DNA from: a virus
IMG/VR virus record: IMGVR_UViG_3300042452_000717
Location: 1 to 50,940 of that record
Length of the DNA stretch: 50,940 nucleotides
Direction: 5' to 3' (one strand)
Every line of letters starts with the position of its first letter. The stretch's first letter is position 1. Positions 32,801-50,940 of the stretch are shown here, one piece after another. The notes beneath the pieces are model-generated. The model was not told the DNA's origin, searched no databases, and saw only the letters and a list, made by a program, of their open reading frames with translations. The translations under genes were made by a program, and so were the position numbers.

Positions 32801-34944
32801 CGCTGGAGACGAAGCCCGCCGACTGGACCAACGAGAAGTGGGAGCGCACGCAGCTTCTCCAAGAGGCGTTCCTCACGCTGAACGGCACGACGTTCACCGG
32901 CGTCGGCATCGAGGCGAGCGTCGTCACGGATGCGATGAGCGCGGCCGTCACGCCCGACATCACGACGGCGGGCGCGCTGCGCGATCTCCAGCGCTCGGGC
33001 ATCCCGGCTGAGTCTCAAGCCGCGTGGCGCGTTGCCGCGCTCGACATGGTGCGCCGCATGACCGGCGGGCTCACGGAGTTCGACCGATTCCTCGCCAAGC
33101 TCGGCGGATCGCACGACGCGAACGAGCGCGCCCGCGCGATGGCGAACTTCACGGGCTTCTACCAGCTCTGGGAAATGGCCTTCAAGTGGGCCGCGACGCT
33201 GCGCACGATCGACACGCAGCCCGAAGCAACTTCGCTCGACCAAGCCGTTCGCTACGCCGCGGTGGGCACGGCCGACTACGCGAACACCAGCCCGCTGATG
33301 CGGTCCTTCAACTCGAGCTACTCGAGCTTCTCGACCCCGCTGTTCAAGGAGGCTGAGGGCGATGGCGGCCGCTGGGCGCGCGCGTTGATGCGCGAGTCGC
33401 TCAAGGGCCAGTTCTGGATGTACACGAGCACGATGACCGGGCCGCTCATGTCGAGCGTCGTGGTGCATCCGCTGCGCGCTGCGAGCGCGATGGCCGTCAT
33501 GTCGGCCGTTGCGGGGATGCTGCACCGGATCACGACGCAGGACCCCGAAGAGGATGCTTCCTTCCAGGAAGCGCTGCGCGGCTCGGTGGCGCGCTCCGGC
33601 ACTCCGATCGTCGACGCGGCCACGCTCGAGGCGTACTCGCGCCTGGGCGCACCGTGGCCCAACGTGACGGGCGGCGCGATGATCCCGCACGAAGCACGCA
33701 AGGGGCTCGCGTTCGTCTACCAGTCGATGCTCGCGGGCAAGTCCCTGATCTTCCAGGCTCCGGCGCGCGGCGACGAAACCCGCGTCTCGAGTCTGGACGA
33801 GCTCGCGCCCGGCTGGGGCAACTGGATCGGCGCCGCGCAGGGTCTCCAGAGCGCCGCCTCGAAGTCGCCCGACCAGATCGCAACGTCGATGTTCGATGCG
33901 ATGTCGCTGCGCTCCGGCGAGCTCTCGATTGCGATGGCGCACGCAGCCTTCGGCGGGCTCAAGCTGCTGACGAGCGACGACCCCGAGGCGTGGATCAACT
34001 CGCTCAAGCCCGTGCGCGACGCGGCGAGCGACGTGCTCCCCGGAATCTCGCCGTTCTACCTCGCCTCGCGCGACGGCCAGCGATTGATCGAGGTTGCGGC
34101 GCTCGACGGGCAGAAGATCGAAGAGTGGGCGCGCGGCATCGTCCAGGCGAACCAGCCGCGTCCCGCTCAAGACCTGGGCGAGTTCCTGTTCTCGACGCTC
34201 TGGCGTTCGCAGCGCCTCGTGCAGCCCCACATGGGCGGCGTGTCCGAGCGCGAAGCCCTCGACGCCATCGTCGGCCGGCTGTTCCCGGAATCGGCACGCT
34301 CCGACGGGCCTTTCTGGGACAAGCTCCGCTCGGCTCAGTCCGACGTTCACTACCAGATGAGCGAGGTTCTCTCCGGGGCCTACGACTCGTGGCTCCGCGG
34401 CGGGCGCTCGATGGCGTCCTTCGACTCGTGGCTGCTCCCGCAGATGTTCTCGAAGGACGGGCCGATGCAGTCGCTCTTGCGGCGCGAGCCCGACCCCGAG
34501 AAGCGGGCGCGGATGAACGAGTACTTCCAGCGCTTCGTCGGCAGCGACGAGTGGTCGAACCTCTCTGGGATGGCGATGGACCTCGCCCGCAAGCGCGCGA
34601 TGACGCCGGACTTCTTCCGGCAGGCGCTCACCAACGCCATGCGCGACCCGACCGGCCAAGCCATGCTCAACTGGCTCGACAAGGAGGTCGTCCGCTCCAC
34701 GCCGAGCCGCGAGGACATCCACGACTACGCCGCGATCTTCTTCGGTGCGGTGCGTCGTCCAGGATTTGGAACGGCCCGCTACCAGCAGTGGGAGCAAGTG
34801 CTGCGGCGGCTGTACGATTACGGCTACAAGCCCGCTGTGCTGTACGACGACGCGGCCGAAGCGCTGCGCCGCCGAGGCATCAAGCCGGAGATTTCCGGCG
34901 CCCCCGCGCTCCAATCCGCCCTCATCACCAGACCACCGAGGTAG
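26803..34944 (+). CDS. giant polyvalent ejection protein with ParB-like and zincin domains, 2713 aa
   Basis: This protein fills 16% of the genome and follows two ejection candidates, so it is probably packaged and injected. Residues about 240-400 are Gly/Ala-rich and partly hydrophobic. About 610-690 is Pro-rich. A ParB-like domain follows, with VDGHQRTNAAKRL (790-802), the core motif of DdrB-type ParB proteins. A zincin motif HELAH (1231-1235) is followed by EEKWAGAAERWF, giving the third ligand expected for this family. The C-terminal 1,300 residues are largely helical and match no domain I can name. ParB plus metallopeptidase plus a long tail is the plan of phage polyvalent proteins, thought to counter host defences on entry. 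Confidence 0.72.
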   Translation: MLQDSATANANGSRRTGRKLVDALNLAIQAKDRGEPASEAGRSLARQLESVALRPDAVGLQARQVRSAYDAFYTARNKGEQAPPPQLQLGADFADFDLDSSAYENARRVDLLGRTRQPSYHGPDGGLYVDAGGVPTRIPVERYAQFKDQLVRAYRGETPSTGLPITSISTMSKAADVALRAGEWALGEGSWEDTTPFFNVPTADPDMPFASLPSFAQTTDARWSAADRAEAYALLQNPIELRAMQEVLAQASSEGALDIGIGGHILATAGFLADFGATGGYLKAAGAIAGATALRVTGALGSNIGQTVKAAENVTRIDRARGAATATPFSQGFQTIRDFVGYQVVNDAVHGRIGSASDFAGSALTGAKDGAIMAGAGSLIRMVRSNLMGRLAGSYDPVTNRAMSKLGPLGRAAAGIYHTARGADPKLGQKLGVDEMTKRVAALSSQGRGIREMLARQGWSQHAAQMVENTMDSAALGIMFGAYHNATASPGYDDLHPWEKTKRMVDGLTSPEAIGGAVAFAGHVLATGYANKFKWGKEWEKAPPAMREQFDKELEFYTREIAQPSNWENVEAFRKAFDEYRKASPKEWAAYKEFETPYEREALQAAWEGQADSLIRAPDRREPPNDTPPAGETAFPDPGPLEPAGGAGARPAEIRPEGQAAPAAQPPQGFSQSEWAEALAGEILTNPEAALSRMGVEAPAQPRTRERKPVSGEGPDLMRSIERVAELERIPATELVLAPEEMQYKSGTDPKTGRDPEGALTKLKSRDEWSEISAGTILVYERANGERVVVDGHQRTNAAKRLSQGGEPIELNSFVVRESDGITAGQARALGAILNTRAGTGKALDVAKVIRDLGWTAEQVEQLGVRGAFAKQAVGLSQLADPVFAQVVNEQLPANLAAEIGRFIPRADEARQLAAAQMIQRTAKNVEMAESIARGAATEEVFAGRQTDLFGGSDVKTMLELRTEITSDIRPQLKRLATAMKSLARNAETARERKVGEIDAQQARTLAEDQNALIAAIEMQAGKRGTTINELLNRHAEELGKLPDERKRIAESALRELELLAQQGRLFDDSGAGPSQPAQQQSGPSLFSDPTYDYNRGQQRARFPETREPVEPLTPEVEKSWLGKLQGALFPQSEYRNDRVKTLVEQLVTRAGLSSKEAEMVVQAMEARAEVWAKSNGKTIDQWYETRIAGIVNSPTPMPAPEGARAAVTFLSDGRAVLHALSKPRVSDIVHELAHIWRRDLEGAHKAAVEKWAGVRDGVWTRSAEEKWAGAAERWFRQGRAPAPGLAPVFKQMGEWMRSIYRRIRGTGLDVEIPADVRKALESLFSAGPIKEDAAVQARLARLGPAERGAIYVANRNKPQYVGLPQDTIVAHELRGGLPAPARITPAIKIAQAGDSIRQAYDVMRWHSALENVPYNHPDTFHALIELAKGGEAYRAHFEARGSLDALTLAVESARRAKAQTRDAIMASLPEGKIRERMPLSFEYLDAREGTKPVPPELIKKMQATGLADAKGRLNRFVMSALTHHAQNEMALRALEHIGAPQLNEPQAAALPHLAFNRSPWEFLETALARAVSLDRVMDKLREKKWISPEMNRAITRIGSFYGQMWSGNAAGRIHNATIQSAAMRVFGSREQFSDMLRGRGEDALAKLSERFGFRAPPAADMKLLQWAIESGRFAKMKGPQDFERYRKGSGYLFDLARDINDIMGRLGQAAARFGYLDPKQIEKHGGRYVPHLYLSLENQDIVKELREGRMPSLFAGRNMARGSESKDGITQLQIEDPFVWLSTVTHQEAKAIQYLGVLQDLKNGNYAISEAEYRKLDPYSQGVYEPLTLDVVGANPSEASLANGPARANSIVMGNLLKEQLDPASGRPKSTQLTDTLRAYLGLDADMKPSKEGRLYAPRQLVWELDNLTRQMFNAPELETIVDKAMYAYEQATRGFRRGLTIGRPKHWTLNVTNSVMTNHVLDRLPMWDVAKSVLTGKGYFADAQRDIAGLLELVQRRSLETKPADWTNEKWERTQLLQEAFLTLNGTTFTGVGIEASVVTDAMSAAVTPDITTAGALRDLQRSGIPAESQAAWRVAALDMVRRMTGGLTEFDRFLAKLGGSHDANERARAMANFTGFYQLWEMAFKWAATLRTIDTQPEATSLDQAVRYAAVGTADYANTSPLMRSFNSSYSSFSTPLFKEAEGDGGRWARALMRESLKGQFWMYTSTMTGPLMSSVVVHPLRAASAMAVMSAVAGMLHRITTQDPEEDASFQEALRGSVARSGTPIVDAATLEAYSRLGAPWPNVTGGAMIPHEARKGLAFVYQSMLAGKSLIFQAPARGDETRVSSLDELAPGWGNWIGAAQGLQSAASKSPDQIATSMFDAMSLRSGELSIAMAHAAFGGLKLLTSDDPEAWINSLKPVRDAASDVLPGISPFYLASRDGQRLIEVAALDGQKIEEWARGIVQANQPRPAQDLGEFLFSTLWRSQRLVQPHMGGVSEREALDAIVGRLFPESARSDGPFWDKLRSAQSDVHYQMSEVLSGAYDSWLRGGRSMASFDSWLLPQMFSKDGPMQSLLRREPDPEKRARMNEYFQRFVGSDEWSNLSGMAMDLARKRAMTPDFFRQALTNAMRDPTGQAMLNWLDKEVVRSTPSREDIHDYAAIFFGAVRRPGFGTARYQQWEQVLRRLYDYGYKPAVLYDDAAEALRRRGIKPEISGAPALQSALITRPPR

Positions 34945-35410: not shown

Positions 35411-36315
35411 GCGCCATTGGACTTGAGCCGATCGACGGGTTCGATCCGGTCGACCGACGGCTCTACGTCCTTGGCGTCAAGACCTGCGCCGAGATCCCGC
35501 TGACCGTCGGCACCGACCCGCACGACCCTTGGCAGATCGCGGGCGAGACCAGCGACCCGCCGGACGGCACGAACATCGAGGGCGACGCCGGCGCGTACCA
35601 CGCGACCGGAGACCCGCTCGACACCGAATTCGGTCACGTCTGGCCGTTCATGAACCTGGGCGCGACGATGCGCTCCAAGAACCAGAGCGCGCCGTCCGTC
35701 GTTCCCGTGGGAGCCGGAACCAGCGCGGGCGGGTACTACCCCGCCTGCCGCTCCAAGGAAGGGATCAACCACTACCGCCGCTGCGTGCGCCTCGCGCCGC
35801 GCATGTTCGGCTCCGACGGCCGCTTGCTGGCGTTCCGCTTGTTTGGCCGCCTCAAAGCGACCAACGCCGCCAACGTCCTCGACCTGATCCTGCCCTTCGA
35901 CCTCGTGACGGCCTTGCCGACCACCACGCTGGTCGCCGGCAAGTACGTGGCCATCCGGTTCCCGCTGGGCAACCTGGGCGCGAATGAGGTTGGATTCTCC
36001 CTGACCGTGGAGGGCCAGCCGATGGGACCGCGCCGGAGCCTCTGGGAAGCCCGCCTGCGCGTCGCGGCGCAGACCAACCCCGGAACATCAAACCCGGCGC
36101 TCGACCTCGTGCGCGGCCCGCTCGAGCTCGACCTGACCTCGACTGGCCCGGACATGGACACAACGGGCGGGCAGCTCGGCTTCCTGTTTGCCGCGCGCCG
36201 CTCCACCGCCATCGCCGTTGACGACATCGGGACCGCCGGCGGCGCCGCGCAAGACGGCTCCGAGGTCTACGTCAAGGTCGGCGCCGCCTCCTGCTTCCTG
36301 TTCCCCGGAGTCTGA
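35407..36315 (+). CDS. hypothetical virion-region protein, 302 aa
   Basis: A mixed protein of no recognised family, beta-rich in the C-terminal half (VEGQPMGPRRSLWEARLRVA). It has three or four Cys and no membrane span. The GTG start at 35407 overlaps the previous stop. Its place next to the alpha/beta-hydrolase gene at the end of the late block suggests a tail or adsorption component. Confidence 0.65.
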   Translation: MSAIGLEPIDGFDPVDRRLYVLGVKTCAEIPLTVGTDPHDPWQIAGETSDPPDGTNIEGDAGAYHATGDPLDTEFGHVWPFMNLGATMRSKNQSAPSVVPVGAGTSAGGYYPACRSKEGINHYRRCVRLAPRMFGSDGRLLAFRLFGRLKATNAANVLDLILPFDLVTALPTTTLVAGKYVAIRFPLGNLGANEVGFSLTVEGQPMGPRRSLWEARLRVAAQTNPGTSNPALDLVRGPLELDLTSTGPDMDTTGGQLGFLFAARRSTAIAVDDIGTAGGAAQDGSEVYVKVGAASCFLFPGV

Positions 36316-36319
36316 GCCC

Positions 36320-37402
36320 ATGCCCGTCGTCACGACTCGAGCCACGTCCTCGTTTCCCGGCACGTCCGGCCGCGTCTACTACGGCGACAACGAGGACGAA
36401 CACCTGTTCGGGTGGAACTCGGCCAGCCCGCAGAAGGACATGCCGCTGATCGTCTACATCAAGCCGGGCGACACCTTCAACATGGGCGAGCGGATCATGG
36501 ACCCGCACACGTCCTCGAGTCCGGCGTTGGGCGACGCCATCGACACGATCTCCGACACGCTCGGCTGGCCCATCGTCAGCCTCGAGATCCGGCCGCCCTA
36601 CAGCTCCTCGTCGCCGCGCCGTGAGCCGTTCGGCAAGCGCCCCTGGCCGGGGCAGATCCTCTCCGTGATGAAGGCCATGCGCTTCCTGCGGCGCAACCGC
36701 AAGAACACCGCGCTCTGGGGCGCGAACGGCTCCATCTCGCCGCAGAACATCGTGCTCATGGGCTCGAGCTCCGGCAACACGCTGAGCCTGCTCGCCGCGT
36801 GCATCCCGCCCCAGGCGACGCCTTTCGGGCGTGGAACGCAGCTTGGCGCGCTCAACGACGACGAGGACCACCGCCCCGACGCCGTGGCCGGGTTCATCGG
36901 GCAAATCGACTGGACGCAGTTTGCGCTCGATCCAGCCCAAACCTCGGGGCCGTTCCGCTTCGACAAACGCCAGTATTTCTTCGGCCTCAACAGCACGCTG
37001 ACGAACACCGCGCTCGCCGAACAGGTGAAGCGCTCCGCGTCGCCGTGGTGGTGGCTCAACTACGTCGAGCCCGATCGCACGCGGTTCTGGGGCTCTTGGG
37101 GTCCGCGCCCCGAATCCGGCAAGGGCCGCGATCTCACGCCCGCCCTGTGGTCGCCCGGCACGATCCAGAATGTGGAACCAGCCGCGTTCTACGACCCGCA
37201 CCACTACTTCCAGGCCGATCCCTGGGACAAAGCGCTTCGTGCGCGCGGCGTCAAGGTCCGCACGATCTGGGGCGACAAGAACGACAACTCGCAGGGCGTC
37301 AACAACGACCTCGCCGCCGCTCAGGGTCTAAGCGAAAACGCCTTCAAGACCCAGGATCTCGTCCGCTGGGTCAACGCCCTCGGCTGGAAGCGGCTGCTCT
37401 AG
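36320..37402 (+). CDS. alpha/beta-hydrolase-like protein (esterase candidate), 360 aa
   Basis: A nucleophile elbow GSSSG (residues 148-152, Ser 150) follows a hydrophobic strand (NIVLMGSSSG), the hallmark of alpha/beta hydrolases. Earlier, the segment MPLIVYIKPGDTFNMGERI looks like the first core strand and oxyanion loop. A late GDKND (318-322) could supply the acid. I do not see a histidine after it, although DPHH lies upstream (about 290), so the triad may be permuted or incomplete. It ends the late block, where adsorption or depolymerase genes often sit; an O-antigen or capsule esterase is one guess. Confidence 0.55.
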   Translation: MPVVTTRATSSFPGTSGRVYYGDNEDEHLFGWNSASPQKDMPLIVYIKPGDTFNMGERIMDPHTSSSPALGDAIDTISDTLGWPIVSLEIRPPYSSSSPRREPFGKRPWPGQILSVMKAMRFLRRNRKNTALWGANGSISPQNIVLMGSSSGNTLSLLAACIPPQATPFGRGTQLGALNDDEDHRPDAVAGFIGQIDWTQFALDPAQTSGPFRFDKRQYFFGLNSTLTNTALAEQVKRSASPWWWLNYVEPDRTRFWGSWGPRPESGKGRDLTPALWSPGTIQNVEPAAFYDPHHYFQADPWDKALRARGVKVRTIWGDKNDNSQGVNNDLAAAQGLSENAFKTQDLVRWVNALGWKRLL

Positions 37403-39277: not shown

Positions 39278-39715
39278 TCAGTCTAGTTCCTGGATTTCGA
39301 CCTCGACGCGCTCGGGCTCGCCGAACTCTTTGGTCAGGTGCTCGCTCACGATCTGCGCGTCGTCTCGCCACACGATACCAGTGAGCGCATCCTCCACGGC
39401 GCGGGCCAACTTGAGCACGTCCGGCCGGGTCGTCGGGTACGGCGGCGCCGAGGAGCGCAGGCCCTTCTTGCCGTAGTGCCCAACGGGACGCGCCCTGATG
39501 AAGCGCAGCGTGAACATGAGCGGACCCTCAAGCAGGGCCGGCGACGTGCGAGCGGAGAGCGCGCAGGCGGCGACGATGGCCTTCCACGGCTTCGCCTTCG
39601 CGTTCGCGTCCACAAGCTGCACGCCGAGCTTGCCGTTGGCCCGGTGGAACGCAAAGCCCTTCTTCGAGCCTCCGGGGGCGGCGCGGCCGGGGACAGTGAA
39701 GCGGAGGATGCTCAC
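39278..39715 (-). CDS. rusA: RusA-family Holliday junction resolvase, 145 aa
   Basis: RusA homologues cut Holliday junctions. N-terminal FTVPGRAAPGGSKKGFAFH and a middle segment GPLMFTLRFIRARP match the family. The catalytic acidic residues lie in TRPDVLKLARAVEDALTG and WRDDAQI (Asp 99, 109, 118, 119). Length is normal (E. coli RusA is 120 aa). It belongs functionally with the exonuclease and annealase of the same block. It overlaps the preceding gene by 4 nt. Confidence 0.85.
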   Translation of the reverse strand: MSILRFTVPGRAAPGGSKKGFAFHRANGKLGVQLVDANAKAKPWKAIVAACALSARTSPALLEGPLMFTLRFIRARPVGHYGKKGLRSSAPPYPTTRPDVLKLARAVEDALTGIVWRDDAQIVSEHLTKEFGEPERVEVEIQELD

Positions 39716-42411: not shown

Positions 42412-42733
42412 GTCTCGCCTCCGCAAGCGCGCGAAGGGCGGCGTCGAGGTCGAGCATGGGCGTAAGGGCCACGCCGCTCATGACCCCCTTCGCCGCCTCG
42501 CACACCTCGTGCATCGCCGCGAGAACTTCCGCGCTCGGGATCGGGTGCACGCTGCGCTCGTAGTGCTCCAGTTGCGCGTCAGACTTCAACTCCGTTGGGT
42601 ACAGGTCCACGAATCCAGGCGTGGGCACCTTGGGGCGCACCCAGTACCACGCCTCCTCGTGCGCCGGGTCGTAGTCCGCCCCCTCGCGCGGCGGCTCGCT
42701 CGTCCACGCGGTCGCGGCGTTGTGCTTGCTCAC
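42404..42733 (-). CDS. hypothetical protein, 109 aa
   Basis: A Trp/Tyr-rich N-terminal half (HEEAWYWVRPKVPTPGFVDL) is followed by EVLAAMHEVCEAAKGVM, and LDLDAALRALAEARRG at the end. The latter part resembles that of the protein at 41895-42200. The GTG start overlaps the previous stop (GTGA). Function unknown. Confidence 0.6.
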   Translation of the reverse strand: MSKHNAATAWTSEPPREGADYDPAHEEAWYWVRPKVPTPGFVDLYPTELKSDAQLEHYERSVHPIPSAEVLAAMHEVCEAAKGVMSGVALTPMLDLDAALRALAEARRG

Positions 42734-43536
42734 GCCCCACGCTCCACGGTCTTGAGCACCGGCAGGGCGACGCGGTGGGCGCGGATAACACCGGTACACC
42801 GGAGCGCTCGCTCCGCGCTGTCGAAGCCGACAGTCATGCCGTCCATGCGCTCGGCTGCCCACGTCTCCAGCACGCGCGCGGGCGGCTGCGAGGACACGGG
42901 CGCGCTCGGCTCGCCGCGTTGGCGGGCGGTGTAGATCTCCTGCCACCTCTCGCGGATCGGCTCGAAGTCTGAGTAGCTGACGCGAGCGTCCGCAAGCGCC
43001 TCTGCGCACGCCACCGCAGCGCGCGTGTACTCGTCGGGCCGCAGCGCCTCGTTGTGCGCCTTCTTCTCCTCGGCCAGCGCGCGCGTCAACTCTCCGATCT
43101 GCGCACGGTAGCTGCGCTGCGCCGCGTTCAGCTCGTTTGCGTTCTGCGTCGCCAGCTCGCGCATCGTTTCCGCCTCGCGCTTGGCCGCGTCGCGCTCGCG
43201 CTGAGCGCGGTCGCGGCTCTCGTTCGCCAGATCCAGCGCCGAATGAGTCAAGTCGAGCGCTCGCTGAGTTTGGTCGCGCGCATCACGCGCAACAGCGAGT
43301 GCAGACCGCGCCTCGTCCCGCTCCTTCTCGGCGGCGGCGAGCTTGGCGCGCGTTTCTTCGTGGCACGCTGGGCAGTCCCAGAGAATGAGCGGCAGCGTTT
43401 TGTGCCCTCGGTTGCAGCGGTCGTTGTTGAGCCGCTGCTGGGCCTCGGCTAGCTGCGCACGCAATCGCGCCTCGAGGGAGACGCCGTCACGCACTTGGTT
43501 GCGTAGTGCTTGGATTTCCAGTTGCTGCTCGTTCAT
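42730..43536 (-). CDS. long coiled-coil protein, 268 aa
   Basis: From about residue 10 to 175 the sequence is almost continuous charged helix (ETRAKLAAAEKERDEARSAL, RDRAQRERDAAKREAETMRE), broken by a short CNRGHKTLPLILWDCPACHE insert. That insert has a C-x(n)-C-x2-C-H arrangement that could bind zinc. The C-terminal 90 residues are a mixed domain. The ATG at 43536 has no clear ribosome binding site. It heads the small-gene run downstream of RecT and could be a scaffold or adaptor, but no family is recognised. Confidence 0.65.
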   Translation of the reverse strand: MNEQQLEIQALRNQVRDGVSLEARLRAQLAEAQQRLNNDRCNRGHKTLPLILWDCPACHEETRAKLAAAEKERDEARSALAVARDARDQTQRALDLTHSALDLANESRDRAQRERDAAKREAETMRELATQNANELNAAQRSYRAQIGELTRALAEEKKAHNEALRPDEYTRAAVACAEALADARVSYSDFEPIRERWQEIYTARQRGEPSAPVSSQPPARVLETWAAERMDGMTVGFDSAERALRCTGVIRAHRVALPVLKTVERGA

Positions 43537-43654: not shown

Positions 43655-44824
43655 CTAGCCCTTCTCGGCCGTGTCCAAGCCAGCGGCGCGCATCAAAGCG
43701 AACCGCTTTTCCATCAGGGCGAGGCACCAGTCCGCGGCAAGCGCTCCGCGCGGAATCGCGTGCGCCTCGAACTTCTTGCTGACGGCGAACTGCACGGCTT
43801 TCTGGAGCAACGTGTGCCGGCCGCCGCCTTCGCCGCCCATGATCGCCTGCGTCGGCGTGTACGCCTTGAGCGGGCCGTTCGTCCACACGTTCTCGCCGGC
43901 CACGTCCGAGAAGCTGTCGAGCCGCGCCTTGAGTTGGAGCTCGAGCCCGTCGGCGTCGTTCACGTCCACGCCGCCCATGCTCGGGTCGTACCAGTTGGAC
44001 GGATGGCTCAGCGGGTGGGCCGTCTGCGTGACCTGCTCCACTTCCGGCGCCGGCTCGGGCTGCTGCTGCTGCGGAGCCTCGGCGAAGGGATCTTCCTCCT
44101 CCTGCGGCTGCGCGTCCTGCACGATCTCCGCCACACGCGGCTCCGTGGGCGTCGGCGCAGCGGGCGCAGCCTGGGACTTCCCAGGAGCTTGAGCGCCGAG
44201 CGCCTTGCGGGCGTGCTCCTTGACCGCCTCGATGGTCCGCGGGCGCTCGTTCTGTGCGGGCTGGCCCTGCTGCGGCGCGCGCTCGGCCTGGATCTGGTCG
44301 AACTCGTCGTTCACATAGAGGCCCATGCACACGTCCGGCCACAACTCGCGGGCAAGCCGCGCCGAAGCACGCGCCATGAGCATCGCGCGCTTGTTCATCT
44401 TCCAGTTCCCCTTGCCCAGAAGCCCAGCCTCGCGCGCCTCGTCGATCGTGTACGCGATGTCGAGCACTTCGCCCGTGTCCGAGCGCTTGCCTTCGTAGGC
44501 CGCCTCGGTGTCGTTCACGCGGATGAGCTTGAAGTGCGTGCATTTGCCCGAACTGCGCACGATCGCGGTGAGCAAGTCCGACGACATGCCGACTTTGCCG
44601 TCGATGACGTGCATCTCAGCCAGAGCCATCATCAGCCCGATGCCCAACTCGTGGGCGCGCATCCCAACGAGGAAGATGTTGCTCGGCTTGTTGCGGTACG
44701 CAGTGGGGACAAGATCCGACGCTGCGAGCGTGCTCGCCATGCGCATCAGTTCTTCGGGATCGCGCGCCGTGAGTCCGGCGGTGCGATTGGTGGCGGGAAC
44801 AGTGAGAGCCTGCTGCTTTTCCAT
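43655..44824 (-). CDS. recT: RecT/Bet-family single-strand annealing protein, 389 aa
   Basis: RecT proteins anneal complementary single strands left by a partner exonuclease. The core (residues about 30-210) includes NIFLVGMRAHELGIGLMMAL, DGKVGMSSDLLTAIVRSSG and KMNKRAMLMARASARLAREL, patterns of the RecT/RdgC-like annealase group. A long Pro/Gln/Glu-rich linker (about 215-290) and a C-terminal region follow; such extensions are common. The ATG at 44824 starts just after the exonuclease gene (29 bp gap). The pair is the usual phage recombination module. Confidence 0.85.
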   Translation of the reverse strand: MEKQQALTVPATNRTAGLTARDPEELMRMASTLAASDLVPTAYRNKPSNIFLVGMRAHELGIGLMMALAEMHVIDGKVGMSSDLLTAIVRSSGKCTHFKLIRVNDTEAAYEGKRSDTGEVLDIAYTIDEAREAGLLGKGNWKMNKRAMLMARASARLARELWPDVCMGLYVNDEFDQIQAERAPQQGQPAQNERPRTIEAVKEHARKALGAQAPGKSQAAPAAPTPTEPRVAEIVQDAQPQEEEDPFAEAPQQQQPEPAPEVEQVTQTAHPLSHPSNWYDPSMGGVDVNDADGLELQLKARLDSFSDVAGENVWTNGPLKAYTPTQAIMGGEGGGRHTLLQKAVQFAVSKKFEAHAIPRGALAADWCLALMEKRFALMRAAGLDTAEKG

Positions 44825-44853: not shown

Positions 44854-45837
44854 TTAGACGGCCTGCGCCGCCTTGGTCAGAATCAGCGGGCGCGTGGTCT
44901 GCGTGTAGGCAGCCTTCGCCGAAATGTTGGCGACGCGGTTCTTCCACGTAGCCACAAGCACGCCGCCAACGGTCGCGCCTTCTGCTTCTTTCATCGCCGA
45001 CTTGAGCGCAGCCTGTGCTTGGTCGGCTGCGTCCTCGGCGATCTTGAGCGCCTGCTTCGCGTCTCGGTACTTGGCGAACACGATGGGGTCGACCTCGACG
45101 CTTGAGCCCACGACGGCGCGCTTCCACAAGCGGCCAACCTCCTCCGAACTCGTCAAGTGGTCGGGCTCGGGCGGGATGCTCGGCGCAACATGCTCGCGCC
45201 AGAAGCGTTCGCACGTCTCGCGGATCAACAGCCACAAGTCCGCATCGAACTTGATGTAGTACGGGCGCACGTCGTCGCCGCCGAAGTCTGCAACGAGCAA
45301 CCCCTCGTCGAACGGCATCCCGCACTCGCGCAGCACGCCTAGCTGCTGCTGCACCTGGAGCACGTAGTAGATCGGCGGGCCGTCCTTCCACTTCATGCGC
45401 TGGTCGGGGTCGATCCGCTTCACTTCGAGCGGAGCCTCGAACTCTGCGCCATCAGTGACGAAGAAGTCGGGGGTGCAGGAAAGCACGCTGCCGGGGATGC
45501 GCCAGACGACGCGATCGTCGTGCGCAAGGCAACATGCACTACCCACGCGCGCGAGCCGGAGGTTTTCCCACTCCGCCGGCGTGTAGAGGTTCAGCGAGTT
45601 CTCGCCAGCGTAGAAGGTCGCAATCGCGTGCTCGAACACTTGGCCCGCGCGCATCTTGCTCGTCTCCTCGACCTCCTCGCCCTTCTTGTGCGAGTAGACG
45701 CCGAAGGCGGAGCGCCACGGGTTCGCGCCCATCAGTGCGGGCGACTCCGAGGCGCCGATCATGTTGCGGCGCGCTGCGGCCCACTCTGCGGTGGTCTGGA
45801 ACGTCAGCGGTGCGACGGGTGAAAAGGCGGTTTTCAT
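44854..45837 (-). CDS. YqaJ/lambda-exonuclease-family nuclease, 327 aa
   Basis: This 5'-3' dsDNA exonuclease would partner RecT. The family signature is present: N-terminal GASESPALMGANPW (residues 28-41), the EHA helix (69-71), and the catalytic core CTPDFF (Asp 124) with EAPLEVKR (Glu 138, Lys 140). The later helix WLLIRETCERFWREH contains the usual C-terminal part. The ATG at 45837 is preceded by the previous stop with a 2-bp gap. Confidence 0.88.
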   Translation of the reverse strand: MKTAFSPVAPLTFQTTAEWAAARRNMIGASESPALMGANPWRSAFGVYSHKKGEEVEETSKMRAGQVFEHAIATFYAGENSLNLYTPAEWENLRLARVGSACCLAHDDRVVWRIPGSVLSCTPDFFVTDGAEFEAPLEVKRIDPDQRMKWKDGPPIYYVLQVQQQLGVLRECGMPFDEGLLVADFGGDDVRPYYIKFDADLWLLIRETCERFWREHVAPSIPPEPDHLTSSEEVGRLWKRAVVGSSVEVDPIVFAKYRDAKQALKIAEDAADQAQAALKSAMKEAEGATVGGVLVATWKNRVANISAKAAYTQTTRPLILTKAAQAV

Positions 45838-45839
45838 GG

Positions 45840-46217
45840 CTAGTTCGATTGCTCGATGCGGCGCAGCGTGAACTCGCGCCAAGAGGGAGGGAGTTTGTCG
45901 AGGTTGTGGGCCAGCAAGTCCAGCGGGGCGCGACCGAAAGGCTCGCCGATCATGCGGAACTCAAGGCGCACGCCGGGGAGCGGCTCCAGCATCTCCACTT
46001 CGCAGACGCCGTAGTAGATCGTCCGCTCTCCGCGCTTGGCGTCGGTGTCGAGCATCTGGCGCGCGGCTTTTGAGGCCCCCTGTGCGATGCCGCGCAGTTC
46101 GGCGCGGTCCAGCCCCATCATCACGCCGACAACCTCGTCGAGCGTGTTGTCCGAGCGAATGACGAGGCAGCAAATCGCGTGGATGCGAACGGAGTCGCGG
46201 GTCGTCGTGGTGGTCAT
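45840..46217 (-). CDS. hypothetical protein, 125 aa
   Basis: A small mixed domain (RIHAICCLVIRSDNTLDEVV, then VRLEFRMIGEPFGRAPLD) with no membrane span. It is the first gene after the palindrome-bearing gap and directly precedes the exonuclease, so it is probably co-transcribed with the recombination genes. GAGG lies about 9 bases before the ATG. No family is recognised. Confidence 0.65.
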   Translation of the reverse strand: MTTTTTRDSVRIHAICCLVIRSDNTLDEVVGVMMGLDRAELRGIAQGASKAARQMLDTDAKRGERTIYYGVCEVEMLEPLPGVRLEFRMIGEPFGRAPLDLLAHNLDKLPPSWREFTLRRIEQSN

Positions 46218-46533
46218 CTTTCGGGTCCTCGAGCGCGTGGGTTAGGTCGCGCTTCGACGATGGTAGCCGCCGGTCAACGCCGAGGGAACGGCAATTCGCC
46301 GAAAACATGGAAGAATGGCGGGGCCGAACTTTGGCGGGCGCGGGGGGAACGAGTGATAGATAGCTGGGCTCGAGGTTCTGAGTCTGGGATTGGTTCTGGG
46401 GTTTGGAGGTTTGGGACGGCCGGCCTGGCTGTCCAGGATTTGGACGGGCTGGGTCCACGGTCTGGAAATAGAGGCGCCCCGCGTCGTCCTGAGATTGGAC
46501 GGGCGGGGCGCGAGTGTCGGGCCGGCGGGGCCG
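46218..46533. other. 316-bp gap holding three operator-like palindromes
   Basis: This is the longest gene-free gap of the leftward block. Its right half holds three GTCCA-N5-TGGAC-type palindromes (46431-46500); left of them is a run of degenerate TCTGGG/TTGGAG-like repeats (about 46375-46425). It lies immediately upstream of the recombination genes and downstream of the 40-aa gene, so it probably contains a second promoter for the block. I cannot fit a convincing -10/-35 pair. Confidence 0.5.
46431..46500. promoter_or_regulatory. three 15-bp operator-like palindromes
   Basis: GTCCAGGATTTGGAC (46431-46445), GTCCACGGTCTGGAA (46453-46467) and GTCCTGAGATTGGAC (46486-46500) share the pattern GTCCA-N5-TGGAC with one or two mismatches. 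Their starts are 22 and 33 bp apart, two and three helical turns. The same family recurs at 50705-50801. Likely binding sites for one dimeric regulator. Confidence 0.6.
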
Positions 46534-46656
46534 TTAGAAGTTGGCGCAAGGGCCGAGGATTGCGGCGGCGAGCACGATTCCGGCGACGGTCAACGCGAGT
46601 TCAGCAGCGGCGCGTTCGATCCACGGCGGCGGATCTTCGGGGCGGGGGGCGCTCAT
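46534..46656 (-). CDS. 40-aa single-span membrane peptide
   Basis: A short gene whose ATG (46656) overlaps the upstream stop (ATGA), the same coupling as its neighbours. A Pro-rich N-terminus (SAPRPEDPPPWIERA) is followed by a hydrophobic stretch (AELALTVAGIVLAAAILGP) and CANF at the end. It would cross the inner membrane once. Too short for confident family assignment: a holin-like or host-takeover peptide is possible. Confidence 0.6.
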   Translation of the reverse strand: MSAPRPEDPPPWIERAAAELALTVAGIVLAAAILGPCANF

Positions 46657-47210
46657 TCGAGCGGCGGCTCGGCGTGGAAATCGCTCGGCGGCGTGGTGGT
46701 GTAGCCGATGGACGCGAGTTGGTCTCCGATGTCCTCAAGCAAGCGAGCTTCGTCGCAATCGTCCTGCGCGAGCCGGTCTGCGATGTCGTTGGCGATTTGG
46801 TAGAGGGCGTCGGCGTGCTCCTCCTCGCTCTCCAGCGTCTCGCGTTCGTTTGCGTCGTAGGCGAGGCGAAGCGCGGCGCGTTGGTGGCGCGCGCAGTCCA
46901 GCGCGAGCGCGACGCTGATAGCCTGCGAGGCGGGCAAGCCGGCGAGTTTGGCGGCGGCGTCCACGGGTCGATTCTCTTCCAGTAGGTAGACGATCTCGCG
47001 GGCGATCCGGTTCGCGTCCACGATCGGAAGGGCGCTGCGCATCGCAGCCTCTTCGCGTTCCCAAGCTGCATCTGTGGGCACTCCGCGATCATCTGTCTCC
47101 TCGTCGTGCTGCGCGTCGATGATGGCGCGGGCGTGCTCGATCTGCGCCTGAGTGCTCGCGCGCTTGTCGGCGTCGATGCTGGCGGGGCTGGTGGTGTGCT
47201 GCGTGTCCAT
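46653..47210 (-). CDS. acidic hypothetical protein, 185 aa
   Basis: An acidic helical protein (many Asp and Glu; ETDDRGVPTDAAWEREEAAM, EEEHADALYQIANDIADRL) with the segment NRIAREIVYLLEENRPVDAA and a C-terminal acidic helix. It has no known domain. ATG at 47210 is chosen; the frame continues upstream without a better start. It follows the VWA gene by 44 bp and precedes the membrane peptide (ATGA), so it may be part of the ATPase-VWA module; DNA mimicry is a guess based on acidity alone. Confidence 0.6.
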   Translation of the reverse strand: MDTQHTTSPASIDADKRASTQAQIEHARAIIDAQHDEETDDRGVPTDAAWEREEAAMRSALPIVDANRIAREIVYLLEENRPVDAAAKLAGLPASQAISVALALDCARHQRAALRLAYDANERETLESEEEHADALYQIANDIADRLAQDDCDEARLLEDIGDQLASIGYTTTPPSDFHAEPPLE

Positions 47211-47254
47211 TGTGTCGGGTGTGGTAGGTAGTTGGTGTTGGTCGGTCGGTCGGT

Positions 47255-48499
47255 TCACACTGCGACGCGCCCCAGGTGGGCGCGAAGCGTTTTCGTCCAG
47301 ATGGGAACGAGTTCGGCGGGGTCGGGAACCACGATCGGCGGGACGCTTGACCAGCCGGCGCGTTCGATGGAGTCGGCTCCGTCTACTGCGTCGCTGCCAA
47401 GCAAGATCGGCCAAAGCTCGACGCCAGCGGCGCGAGCGTTGCGCCATTGGGGCTCCTCGGCGCGCACTGCGCCGTCGCAGATCAGCATCAAGACTCGGCG
47501 CGGCTCGTGGCGCTTCGCAAGCTCGGCGCAAGCGCGGGCGCAGGCCTTCGGCGCGTGCGTGTCGTAGCTGTACCATTCGGGCATCACGTCAAGCTCTGTT
47601 TGCGCGTGCGACTGCGCGTCATTCCAGCCGATCACGTCTCGCCATTGTTCGGGCACTCCAGGCGCGGGCCGCACTTCGCGCGGGTCTCCGTACTGCGACA
47701 GTGCGACTTTGATTCCTGCGCGAGCGAGTGCGCGATATGCAATCGCAGCCGCGCGCTTCGCAGCCTCGCCGCGTCCGAATTGGCGCATTGAGCCGCTAGC
47801 GTCCAGCGCGATAAACACTGCGCAGCCGCGCACGTCCGGCTTGATGCGGCGCGAGAACGCACGATCCAGGTCGAGTCCAAGGGCCGTCGGCGCAATTCGT
47901 GACAGGTCGAGTTCGCCCGCGTCTTGATTGTGCATCTCGCGTCCGCGTCGGCGCTCGCGCAAAGCCTCCGACAGTGCGGCGCGAATCAAGGGTTCACCGC
48001 TGTAGTCGATCGGCCCCTTGAGGGTGCCAGCGGCGAGCGGGTCCACGATTGCGCCGTCAACGTTCACGGGCGGGCTCTGGCCCTCGACGTTCGCGTTGAC
48101 CAGCTGCATAACCTCCGATCCGTCGGCGGGCGCGGTCGGGCTTGCTTGGAACGTCTGGCCGTGGCCGTCGATCTGGCCGACAACGCGAACCGTGGGCGTG
48201 CGTCCCTTCGGGGCGCTGTCCAGGCCGGGAAACTCGGGCAGCTGGAAGGGCCGGCCGTTCTTCGGCTTCTTCCATGTCTTGGGCGATGCTTGCTCGTTCG
48301 TCCACTTCGCCAGACGCTCGGGCTGGTTGATGCGCATTCGCGCGGCGTGGTTCGCAAACTCGGGCTCGCAACCGATCCACGCGAAGGCGCGGGCGTGGTG
48401 CTGCGCCGGCGTCTCGGTCGGATGCTCGCGCTGCGCCTTCTCGTAGAGGTCGGCGAGACGGTAGAGCGTGCGGCGGCGCTGTAGCGGGGTGAGCTTCAC
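47255..48499 (-). CDS. VWA-domain protein (CobT/BatA-like), 414 aa
   Basis: The C-terminal half is a von Willebrand A domain with a MIDAS motif DASGS (residues 233-237) and a third metal residue in LICDG (Asp 342), so it should bind divalent metal and ligands. The N-terminal 200 residues are less structured. It starts at a GTG that overlaps the ATPase stop (GTGA), and such MoxR/CobS ATPase plus VWA pairs act as chaperone-like remodelling machines (as in CobS-CobT or CbbQ-CbbO). The target is unknown. The acidic protein gene follows. Confidence 0.8.
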   Translation of the reverse strand: MKLTPLQRRRTLYRLADLYEKAQREHPTETPAQHHARAFAWIGCEPEFANHAARMRINQPERLAKWTNEQASPKTWKKPKNGRPFQLPEFPGLDSAPKGRTPTVRVVGQIDGHGQTFQASPTAPADGSEVMQLVNANVEGQSPPVNVDGAIVDPLAAGTLKGPIDYSGEPLIRAALSEALRERRRGREMHNQDAGELDLSRIAPTALGLDLDRAFSRRIKPDVRGCAVFIALDASGSMRQFGRGEAAKRAAAIAYRALARAGIKVALSQYGDPREVRPAPGVPEQWRDVIGWNDAQSHAQTELDVMPEWYSYDTHAPKACARACAELAKRHEPRRVLMLICDGAVRAEEPQWRNARAAGVELWPILLGSDAVDGADSIERAGWSSVPPIVVPDPAELVPIWTKTLRAHLGRVAV

Positions 48500-49938
48500 G
48501 GGGCGCCAACCTTCCAGCCTGCATCGTCGGGCTTGATGATGGTGGCCGCGTTCGTTGCTTGTCCAGGCGTCAGCAAGTTGAGAATGCCGAGGCGCCACGC
48601 GGTCTTGGGCGGGATGGCGTCCACGCCCGCGCGGCCGGCATCGTCTCGGCCGAGCACCATGCGCAGCCATTGGACGCCTAGGCGCGTGCTGGGCGGGATC
48701 GTGAGGTTTCCGCGCAAGTGCTCGCGCCGCAAGTGCGCCAGCGTCTCGGCGAGTTTGCGCGAGCGCGCAGCGTCCAGGCCGGCGCGTTCAAAGAGCGCAG
48801 CCTCTTCGGATTGTGACAGGTAGTCGGCCGCGATCCCTCGGCAACGAGTCAGAAAAGCAGCGTCGATCCGGTGCGACGAATAGCTTCCCGACTCGTCTCG
48901 GAGTCCGTTGCAAGTGCCGATGATTTGAAAGCCGGGCGCGGCCGTGATTGTCTCTCCGGTCTCGGGCAAGTAGAGAGTGCGGCGCGTGGTGTCGGGTTCA
49001 AGCGGCGCGTGAAACAGTGCGGCGAGCAACGGGTCGAGCTTGTCGCACTCGTCCAGTACCAACACTGCGCCGCTCTTCATCGCCAGCGGCAGCGGTCCGT
49101 AGCGGTACTCCAGGCTCGGCGTCGTCTGCGACGGGCGACACGCAAGCGCGCTGTAGGTGATTCCGTCCGCGCAACTGACCAGGACTGCGCGGCGTCCTGC
49201 GCGGGCGCATTCCTGCAAGATCGGATAGGTTTTGCCGCTGCCGCTCGGGCCGCTGACCAGGGCGTGCGAGTGTCGGGCGAGCATCGCTCGAATCTCGGCG
49301 CTCGTGTCGCTCGCGTCATGGTAGAGCGCGTCGGGCGTCGGGATCTCTCCGACGAGTGCGACGGGTCCGCCCTTGGCGCGGGCGTTCACTTCGACCAGGG
49401 CGGCGCGTGCTTCGTCGTACGCTGCGCGGCGGGCGTGAAGCTCCAGGGCTGCGGCGTCGTACTGCGGGCGTGCTTCGACTGCGGCGAGGCGCGAAACTAG
49501 CGGCGTGTCGAGCTCCTCGGCGATGCGGCGAACCTCGTCCGGGTCGATGCTTGCGCGCTGCGGGCCGAGGCGGGCTTGAAGCTCGGCCGCGAGCATATCC
49601 AGGGCGCTCGATGCTGCCGGCGCTGCGACCGGCGCGCTGCGCGGCTGCGGCGTGGTGAGAGGTAGCGTCGGCGTCGCCAGCGGCGCGGCGAACGGTGCGG
49701 GCGCAGGAACGCTCGAACGCTCCTCGCTGGCGCTCGGGTGGACGGGAACGGCGGGCAGTCCGCACGCCTTGTGTGCGTAGACGTTCACGCGCTTGCCGGC
49801 TTTGCTGTGTCCAGGCGGGTAGGTGTAGCCATCGTGGATCGACAAGATGTGCGATCCTTCCGGGTAGGCTCGGCCGCACGTCCAGCATGTGCCGCCGTAC
49901 TTGCTGGCGGTGTACTCGCGGGTTTCGGTGGCGGTCAT
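48496..49938 (-). CDS. MoxR/CobS-like AAA+ ATPase with N-terminal zinc motif, 480 aa
   Basis: The AAA+ core has a Walker A GPSGSGKT (230-237), Walker B VLVLDE (292-297), sensor-1 Asn in QIIGTCN (344) and an arginine-finger candidate in AFLTRCRG, all intact. Residues 1-60 carry CWTCG (Cys 18, 21) and AHKACG (His 56, Cys 59), a likely zinc ribbon, followed by a Pro/Ala-rich linker to about residue 115 and a coiled-coil-like stretch. ATG at 49938 overlaps the stop of the previous gene (ATGA). It is coupled to the VWA gene. Confidence 0.85.
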   Translation of the reverse strand: MTATETREYTASKYGGTCWTCGRAYPEGSHILSIHDGYTYPPGHSKAGKRVNVYAHKACGLPAVPVHPSASEERSSVPAPAPFAAPLATPTLPLTTPQPRSAPVAAPAASSALDMLAAELQARLGPQRASIDPDEVRRIAEELDTPLVSRLAAVEARPQYDAAALELHARRAAYDEARAALVEVNARAKGGPVALVGEIPTPDALYHDASDTSAEIRAMLARHSHALVSGPSGSGKTYPILQECARAGRRAVLVSCADGITYSALACRPSQTTPSLEYRYGPLPLAMKSGAVLVLDECDKLDPLLAALFHAPLEPDTTRRTLYLPETGETITAAPGFQIIGTCNGLRDESGSYSSHRIDAAFLTRCRGIAADYLSQSEEAALFERAGLDAARSRKLAETLAHLRREHLRGNLTIPPSTRLGVQWLRMVLGRDDAGRAGVDAIPPKTAWRLGILNLLTPGQATNAATIIKPDDAGWKVGAP

Positions 49939-50171
49939 GCCTGCACACTCCGCCCGGCGAGCGCTGCGGCGTAAACCTCGGCGGCGTTCGACACTCCAGG
50001 AAGCTCCTGGGCAAGCGTCGTTGCGCACACTCGGGAAAGAGTCTTGGCGGGCAAGTGGCGGATCATTCCGCCCATCGCAGCGAAGCGCGAGGCGCGGCGG
50101 CGCATGACACGGCGCGCAATGTTGCTGCGGGCCTGCGCGATCGTGCGCGGCGTGAGAGGTAGCGTGGTCAT
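49935..50171 (-). CDS. small basic hypothetical protein, 78 aa
   Basis: Arg-rich helical protein (ARSNIARRVMRRRASRFAAM, then HLPAKTLSRVCATTLAQEL) with no known domain; nucleic-acid binding is possible. The ATG at 50171 has AAGGA about 8 bases upstream, clearly better than an upstream ATG at 50264. It is the first gene of the leftward block and overlaps the ATPase gene (ATGA). Confidence 0.65.
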   Translation of the reverse strand: MTTLPLTPRTIAQARSNIARRVMRRRASRFAAMGGMIRHLPAKTLSRVCATTLAQELPGVSNAAEVYAAALAGRSVQA

Positions 50172-50704: not shown

Positions 50705-50801
50705 GTCCAGAATCCGGACGCCGGCCGGCCGCACCGATCGTCCAAGTTCTGGACACTGACGCGCGCGGTAGAGTCCAAGATCTGGAATCCAGAATCTGGA
50801 C
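50705..50801. promoter_or_regulatory. four 15-bp operator-like palindromes
   Basis: GTCCAGAATCCGGAC (50705-50719), GTCCAAGTTCTGGAC (50740-50754), GTCCAAGATCTGGAA (50773-50787) and ATCCAGAATCTGGAC (50787-50801) share the pattern GTCCA-N5-TGGAC with up to one mismatch. Starts are 35, 33 and 14 bp apart, the last two overlapping by 1 bp. Placement about 530 bp upstream of the leftward block fits an operator or activator array. The same family is at 46431-46500. Confidence 0.65.
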
Positions 50802-50841: not shown

Positions 50842-50940
50842 GGGGGGTTTCGGCGGGGAATGGCGATGGATGATCCCTCATCCCTCCTCACCCGCCTTCC
50901 TCCGCTCTGGGTCCCCGTGGAGCACCTGGGAGTCCCGTTT
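50842..50940. repeat. 99-bp direct terminal repeat, right copy
   Basis: Identical to bases 1-99. See the left copy for interpretation. Confidence 0.95.

Follow-up and report, generated by a model that had tools for sequence, protein, structure and literature searches.

An AAA+ ATPase/VWA protein pair of a metagenomic phage shares upstream palindromes with an exonuclease-RecT unit and may act on recombination or replication complexes

We analyzed the entire IMG/VR virus record IMGVR_UViG_3300042452_000717 (50,940 bases; hereafter the window), which comes from a bacterial virus represented solely by metagenomic sequence, focusing on a gene pair that encodes an AAA+ ATPase and a VWA protein with a metal ion-dependent adhesion site (MIDAS). 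Our analysis showed that the motor and MIDAS motifs are intact, that the pair is conserved in a related virus, that its transcription unit is preceded by the same palindromes as a unit encoding a YqaJ/RecE-like exonuclease and a RecT-like annealing protein, and that such pairs recur near recombination genes in other genomes. ATPase/VWA pairs of this kind are already known in other viruses, and what is new here is the palindromes common to the ATPase and exonuclease-RecT units. Since the two proteins have solved relatives that either act as partners (NorQ/NorD and CobS/CobT) or are fused into a single machine (midasin), they very probably work as one motor. Our tentative proposal, which may well turn out to be wrong, is that this would be a NorQD-type remodeling motor regulated with the recombination genes, its target being a recombination or replication complex of the phage.

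An intact ATPase/VWA pair on the minus strand

The window has an exact 99-base direct terminal repeat (positions 1-99 = 50842-50940), which makes it probable that the assembly is circular and complete at ~50.84 kb. Its GC content is 68%, at which long open reading frames (ORFs) by themselves say little, and no tRNA genes were found in it. The portal, major head, and internal virion proteins are encoded on the plus strand. In descending order from ~50.2 kb to 38 kb, the minus strand encodes g78, the ATPase, the VWA protein, g185, and g40, and then g125, the YqaJ exonuclease, and RecT, beyond which lie additional small genes and a RusA resolvase. The ATPase, the VWA protein, and their neighbors are real genes, and the pair is intact.

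The ATPase (48496-49938, minus strand; 480 amino acids) is of the MoxR/CobS/NorQ type and comprises an N-terminal CxxC...HxxC head, a variable linker, and an AAA+ core from about residue 181. Its motifs are CWTC at residue 18, HKAC at 56, GPSGSGKT (Walker A) at 230, LVLDE (Walker B) at 293, and STR at 417; the residues taken as its sensors are putative, following the pattern of the family. It matches Pfam AAA_5 (2.3e-11; 44.3 bits against a cut-off of 22) and phrog_249 (2.9e-27), and a profile of the ATPases of the window and its relative searched against solved chains matched midasin (2.4e-14), NorQ (2.5e-11), CbbQ (1.6e-9), and CobS (1.8e-7). With an AAA_5 core, Walker A, Walker B, and putative sensors, the protein qualifies as an AAA+ ATPase of the MoxR type in the broad sense. 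The four head residues (C18-C21...H56-C59) are invariant between the two viruses, and their spacing suggests that the head binds zinc. The predicted fold of this protein was unusable (predicted local distance difference test, pLDDT, 38.5).

The VWA protein (47255-48499, minus strand; 414 amino acids) starts at a GTG codon that overlaps the ATPase stop codon (GTGA). It consists of an N-terminal segment (1-120), a finger-like segment (~178-224), the VWA domain (~225-400), and a C-terminal tail, and it has a complete MIDAS formed by D233, S235, S237, T314, and D342 (DxSxS, T, D). Its Pfam matches, VWA (0.0016) and CobT_C (0.0025), are both below the Pfam cut-off, and its profile matched midasin (0.00028) and CobT (0.0068) among solved chains. 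The AlphaFold model is weak overall (mean pLDDT 50.4), being fair at ~301-410 and near 241-270. The best PDB match of model residues 220-413 in a Foldseek search was the NorD VWA domain in the NorQD complex (E 2.3e-6), to which the modeled domain aligned with Z 10-11 over ~150 residues, and the best named matches among viral predicted structures were phage CobT and VWFA proteins. The model thus supports a VWA fold for the second protein. Among 15 aligned phage and plasmid VWA proteins (one of them cut), most have a glycine-containing segment at the place of the finger.

A first-pass annotation, made from the letters alone, had described an intact ATPase with an N-terminal Cys/His motif, the GTGA overlap, and a complete MIDAS, all of which we located as claimed. 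It had also likened the two to remodeling pairs such as CobS-CobT and CbbQ-CbbO. Our results support a remodeling pair of the CbbQO/NorQD/CobST type in a non-structural phage region, as both proteins match these families among solved structures.

Palindrome arrays shared with the exonuclease-RecT unit

One apparent link to recombination comes from a 15-bp palindrome, GTCCA-N5-TGGAC. Counting as a site any match with at most one mismatch in the ten fixed positions, the window holds 18 sites, whereas 30 first-order shuffles gave 1.1 on average and never more than 3. Seven of the 18 fall in two upstream regions, the remaining eleven being scattered and mostly coding. The first region contains an array of four palindromes (50705-50801; sites at 50705, 50740, 50773, and 50787) and lies upstream of the unit that begins with g78 (49935-50171; a basic protein of 78 amino acids, pI 12.0) and continues with the ATPase. 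The second contains an array of three (46431-46500; sites at 46431, 46453, and 46486) and lies upstream of the unit that begins with g125 (45840-46217; 125 amino acids) and continues with the YqaJ/RecE-like recombination exonuclease (44854-45837; PF09588, 1.6e-11; phrog_434, 6e-56) and the RecT-like single-strand annealing protein (43655-44824; PF03837, 0.00092, below cut-off; phrog_561, 1e-30), all of these genes being on the minus strand. Nowhere else in the window do three sites lie within 100 bp. The counts of four and three were reached by 0 of 1000 Markov shuffles in either region. Compared across 60 orderings of the half-site, this palindrome has seven sites in the two regions and the runner-up one.

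In the related virus, an array is likewise found upstream of g78, with a count reached by 0 of 1000 shuffles. Its g125-YqaJ-RecT upstream region has one site without mismatches and one with two; support from this second region is weak, because a single site with at most one mismatch was reached by 34 of 1000 shuffles. We read the palindromes as putative operators of one regulator. Spacing within the arrays is often close to 22 or 33 bp, as though the sites shared a face of the helix. A wider likeness between the two upstream regions of the window was not supported, the best local alignment being reached by 33 of 200 shuffles, and a terminator and promoter scan performed no better than chance. 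The assignment of these genes to an early block in the first-pass annotation is plausible, given that the structural genes run the other way and that the adjoining exonuclease and RecT genes have these palindromes too.

Conservation of the pair in a related virus

The only related virus found with this region is IMGVR_UViG_3300044611_001951 (52,937 bases), which has the same gene order. Viral scans with YqaJ and g185 returned no contig or only this relative. A portal scan returned three further contigs without an ATPase match, which show nothing because they are incomplete fragments of 8-27 kb.

Identity over aligned residues between the window and the relative is 81% for the ATPase, 72% for the VWA protein, and 86% for g185, with 69% for g78 (over 78 residues) and 61% for g125. 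The ratio of nonsynonymous to synonymous divergence (dN/dS) is 0.29-0.33 for the ATPase, the VWA protein, and g185, and 0.29-0.49 across the seven genes tested. The 86% identity of g185 was considered as a sign of exceptional constraint and rejected, as few synonymous changes have accumulated in it either (dS 0.31) and its dN/dS (0.33) resembles that of its neighbors.

Within the pair, conservation is uneven. The ATPase core (residues 181-480) is 95-98% identical in 60-residue blocks, compared with 39-63% in the head and linker (1-180). In the VWA protein, 113 of the first 120 residues, 42 of 47 in the finger region, and all of the last nine are identical, and all five MIDAS residues are retained even though residues 246-345 are only 48/100 identical. 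This pattern fits a conserved motor-adaptor interface combined with a faster-changing face toward the target. It should be noted that the proportion of synonymous differences (pS) is 0.40-0.78 in the variable parts and 0.25-0.46 in the conserved parts; since synonymous divergence is uneven too, exchange between lineages (mosaic history) may explain part of the pattern.

Recombination genes near ATPase/VWA pairs in other genomes

To place the pair in a wider context, we searched 15 whole records. A RecT-family match was present in seven: the window (G000), the relative (G001), and records W01, W05, W07, W11, and W13. In the first six of these, ~1-4 kb separate the facing edges of the RecT and ATPase genes; YqaJ was found in eight of the 15 records and is near the ATPase in the same six. 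Plasmid modules combine ssb, Bet/RecT, exonuclease, ATPase, DUF3150, and VWA genes in varying order, and one Vibrio alginolyticus plasmid (L012, L022) carries two annealing protein-exonuclease-ATPase-DUF3150-VWA modules with different gene orders. In cyanophage S-CREM1, CobS is flanked by recombination endonucleases and a sliding clamp, and in a Rhizobium phage, SSU5, nickie, and an Acinetobacter plasmid the pair lies near DNA polymerase III, exonuclease, and RecA genes. In a Microcystis phage, a gene for a RecA-family ATPase lies ~1.2 kb away from CobT and on the opposite strand, and a Roseobacter phage has a resolvase ~8 kb off. No annotated recombination gene was present in the Cytobacillus and IncHI2 stretches, and no RecT-family match in the IncHI2 and Caballeronia examples. 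Taken as a whole, the linkage suggests a functional tie to recombination genes, short of proof.

Further observations concern the plasmid modules themselves. The IS3 transposase WP_100216202.1 splits DUF3150 in an IncC plasmid module (L016 13021-14189) and also occurs beside the VWA start in a Citrobacter plasmid (L010 12825-13993). In the Klebsiella plasmid pKOCBH-A (L034 8755-18554), the ATPase-DUF3150-VWA genes appear fragmented and partly repeated.

Cobalamin and defense families

The ATPase scored 23.2 bits against the NCBIfam CobS equivalog (TIGR01650; cut-off 558.55) and the VWA protein 17.5 bits against the CobT equivalog (TIGR01651; cut-off 759.05). Since a Rhizobium phage 'CobS' itself scores just 164.6, these cut-offs exclude phage relatives generally, and the window proteins are much further from the CobS/CobT models than that protein. 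The N-terminal CobT domain (PF06213) was not among the Pfam matches of the VWA protein up to E 1. No ribonucleotide reductase was found in the window, the relative, or the RecT-linked records W01, W05, W07, and W11; five of the 15 records have one, including cyanophage and SSU5-type records, so the B12 argument may hold for the latter types. CobS-like genes occurred in 481 of 50,697 phage records (with this query alone), mostly in cyanophages. On these scores we rejected membership in the cobaltochelatase families, and the outcome that the first-pass annotation had named as telling against its proposal, ordinary cobalamin genes, is not what we found.

That annotation had also suggested superinfection exclusion or anti-phage conflict, which gained no support from PADLOC. 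Seven window proteins gave no clear defense match: the ATPase matched solely mad8 (E 0.012), the VWA protein, g185, g40, g125, and g78 had no match at E 0.1, and a 268-amino-acid protein at 42730-43536 had weak LmuB/Jet/BnzB matches (best 0.00094). Assignment to a known defense system was rejected on this result; exclusion of other phages by the pair is possible. With the cut-offs failed, no ribonucleotide reductase, and no clear defense match, a B12 role or a known defense system is unlikely. The pair does belong to the broad MoxR AAA+/VWA kind, in which it is a diverged member, and is not CobS-CobT proper.

Proposed mechanism and alternative targets

We propose that the ATPase forms the AAA+ ring of a NorQ-NorD-like machine, on which the VWA protein would dock through the finger segment just before its VWA domain and through its C-terminal tail. 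The MIDAS metal would grip an acidic residue of the target, and ATP turnover would twist or pull that target. Because both transcription units carry the same palindrome arrays, the pair would be produced together with the phage recombination proteins. The likeliest candidate target would be a nucleoprotein of recombination or replication that belongs to the phage itself, such as RecT, to be turned over on annealed DNA, or the exonuclease.

Several points weigh against this proposal. The shared palindromes may mean just the same phase of infection, and early genes of phages cluster anyway; a distance of 5 kb has a 19% chance in a 51-kb phage. The 15 records were picked by hand from the hits for variety. 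In W13 the RecT gene lies 457 kb from the ATPase, and the YqaJ gene is ~210 kb off in W12 and ~15 kb off in W10. Of four distant RecT relatives on other virus contigs, none had an ATPase or VWA gene in the flanks covered (one of which extended just 1.1 kb on one side). In a tree of 19 ATPases, the plasmid ATPases form one clade (91/84) and the SSU5 group another (100/99), with the window pair alone on a long branch, apart from the plasmid clade and without a supported sister. Since the plasmid cases are one ATPase clade and the window ATPase stands apart, there are just about two independent linkages. The GRxLL/I motif of the helix-2 insert of NorQ was not seen in the window ATPase. Finally, the Bet and Exo proteins of SXT support recombination in E. 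coli when the ATPase is absent, at a level ~50-fold below that of RecET or lambda Red (passages of PMC3118119).

A less probable but serious alternative is that the same motor acts on a host complex, in host takeover or counter-defense. The ATPase head and linker (39-63%) and the MIDAS surroundings (48/100), nearest the presumed target, vary most, as if targets differ, and both palindrome arrays fit an early program. Against it, synonymous divergence is also higher in the variable parts, so that mosaic history may explain part of the pattern; no defense family matched clearly, and scans of genome contigs found no relative with the patterns tried.

A chaperone for virion assembly is improbable. 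MoxR-VWA pairs have a precedent in viruses, with this role proposed in jumbo phages and, in the case of Acidianus two-tailed virus, reported (passages of PMC7824862); however, the window pair is opposite in strand to the structural genes and shares its palindromes with the exonuclease-RecT unit, and no virion gene was recognized in the ATPase unit. Metal insertion that matures a metalloprotein of the phage or its host, in the way that NorQD matures nitric oxide reductase, seems quite improbable: the VWA domain is closest in fold to NorD, and the best matches of the ATPase include NorQ, but no metalloenzyme candidate was recognized in the ATPase unit. Lastly, cobaltochelatase subunits that raise host B12 production through host CobN, as proposed for viral CobST (passages of PMC8651126), are very unlikely despite PHROGs labeling the matching families porphyrin and cobalamin biosynthesis and CobS being a detectable relative, given the scores of 23.2 and 17.5 bits, no Pfam match to the CobT N-terminal family, and no ribonucleotide reductase in the window, the relative, or the four RecT-linked records.

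The proposal of a motor for recombination or replication complexes could be generalized, although this wider version is rather unlikely. In phages and conjugative plasmids, AAA+/VWA pairs resembling CobS/CobT might be general nucleoprotein remodelers and not B12 genes. They would be motors of the NorQD type for stripping, loading, or recycling single-strand annealing proteins and the exonucleases that partner them (Gp46/47 or RecA machinery in T4-like cyanophages and SSU5-like phages), each adaptor being fitted to the complex of its own element. Viral CobS-like genes are commonly read as B12 helpers, a role presented as inferred or speculative in passages of such papers (including PMC8651126).

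Neighboring genes and other features

The VWA gene is followed, as the first-pass annotation had it, by an acidic protein and a membrane peptide, the latter just outside the 46653-49938 block it delimited. It further suggested that the proteins of 78, 185, and 40 amino acids may be substrates or effectors. The acidic protein, g185 (46653-47210, minus strand; 185 amino acids), has a pI of 4.4, calculated with two additional upstream codons. The peptide, g40 (46534-46656, minus strand; 40 amino acids), has one hydrophobic stretch. A tblastn search gave no convincing match at its place in the relative, so g40 was at one point taken as unconserved; this was rejected after direct reading revealed a counterpart of 38 amino acids in the same place, whose score was reached by 0 of 500 shuffles. 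The g40-g125 gap of the relative (L003 9304-9985) holds an extra ORF of ~88 amino acids that is not in the window, and a terminator-like stem followed by T's, read by eye.

In the exonuclease-RecT unit, g125 had a weak, sub-threshold Pfam match (UL21a, E 0.057). Further downstream on the same strand lies the RusA-like Holliday junction resolvase (39278-39715, minus strand; phrog_140, 1.8e-27). Elsewhere in the window, 26803-34944 encodes a 2713-amino-acid protein that contains a ParB-like stretch (phrog_1033, 4e-5) and also matched giant phage proteins of unknown function, with a 2494-amino-acid antisense ORF within the same interval. Where the plus-strand genes end, 36188-37402 encodes a protein with a BD-FAE match slightly below cut-off (2.1e-5).

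Comparison with known systems

Midasin/Rea1 is the best sequence match of both proteins among solved structures, but it is one giant eukaryotic chain, compared with two small proteins here. NorQ-NorD (PDB 9qhe and others) shares with the window pair the AAA+ core by sequence and the VWA/MIDAS domain by fold, with the segment before the VWA domain and the C-terminal tail at matching places. According to passages of two NorQD papers (PMC13036017; PMC9976466), a finger before the VWA domain (PdNorD 403-448) enters the ring pore, C-terminal residues of NorD bind the post-sensor-1 loop, NorD MIDAS mutants still bind NorQ yet inactivate the target, and the MIDAS is thought to face the target. The window ATPase differs from NorQ in its zinc-like head and in the GRxLL/I motif not seen in it, and no nitric oxide reductase gene was recognized.

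Viral CobS-CobT proteins (cyanophages, SSU5-like phages, and haloviruses; phrog_249 and phrog_5298) are likewise an adjacent pair in phages (passages of PMC8651126). Their ATPases are, however, ~24-25% identical overall to that of the window in our alignment, and two CobT-type proteins have 644-847 amino acids, including an N-terminal part with an HExxH-like motif, whereas the window VWA protein has 414 and does not have that part. The phage pair is a small version that has no CobT-type N-terminus, and its control sequence would tie it to recombination genes. This shared control sequence turns a vague annotation into a direct test, namely whether the pair binds RecT/Bet or the exonuclease or changes their activity. 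In searches of open-access full texts, none of the papers listed describes ATPase/VWA pairs of this kind as partnering single-strand annealing proteins.

The MoxR ATPase-DUF3150-VWA modules of SXT/IncC/IncHI2-type elements and pCAR1 resemble the window in that Bet/RecT and a lambda-type exonuclease adjoin in most of those read. They differ in having DUF3150 (PF11348), which had no matches in the window or the relative, and in their ATPases, which do not group with that of the window in the tree. Passages of the pCAR1 paper (PMC2642839) name the annealing/exonuclease and ATPase/VWA gene sets without linking them there, and the question raised by the phage pair applies equally to the ATPase-DUF3150-VWA genes beside Bet and Exo in SXT-like elements.

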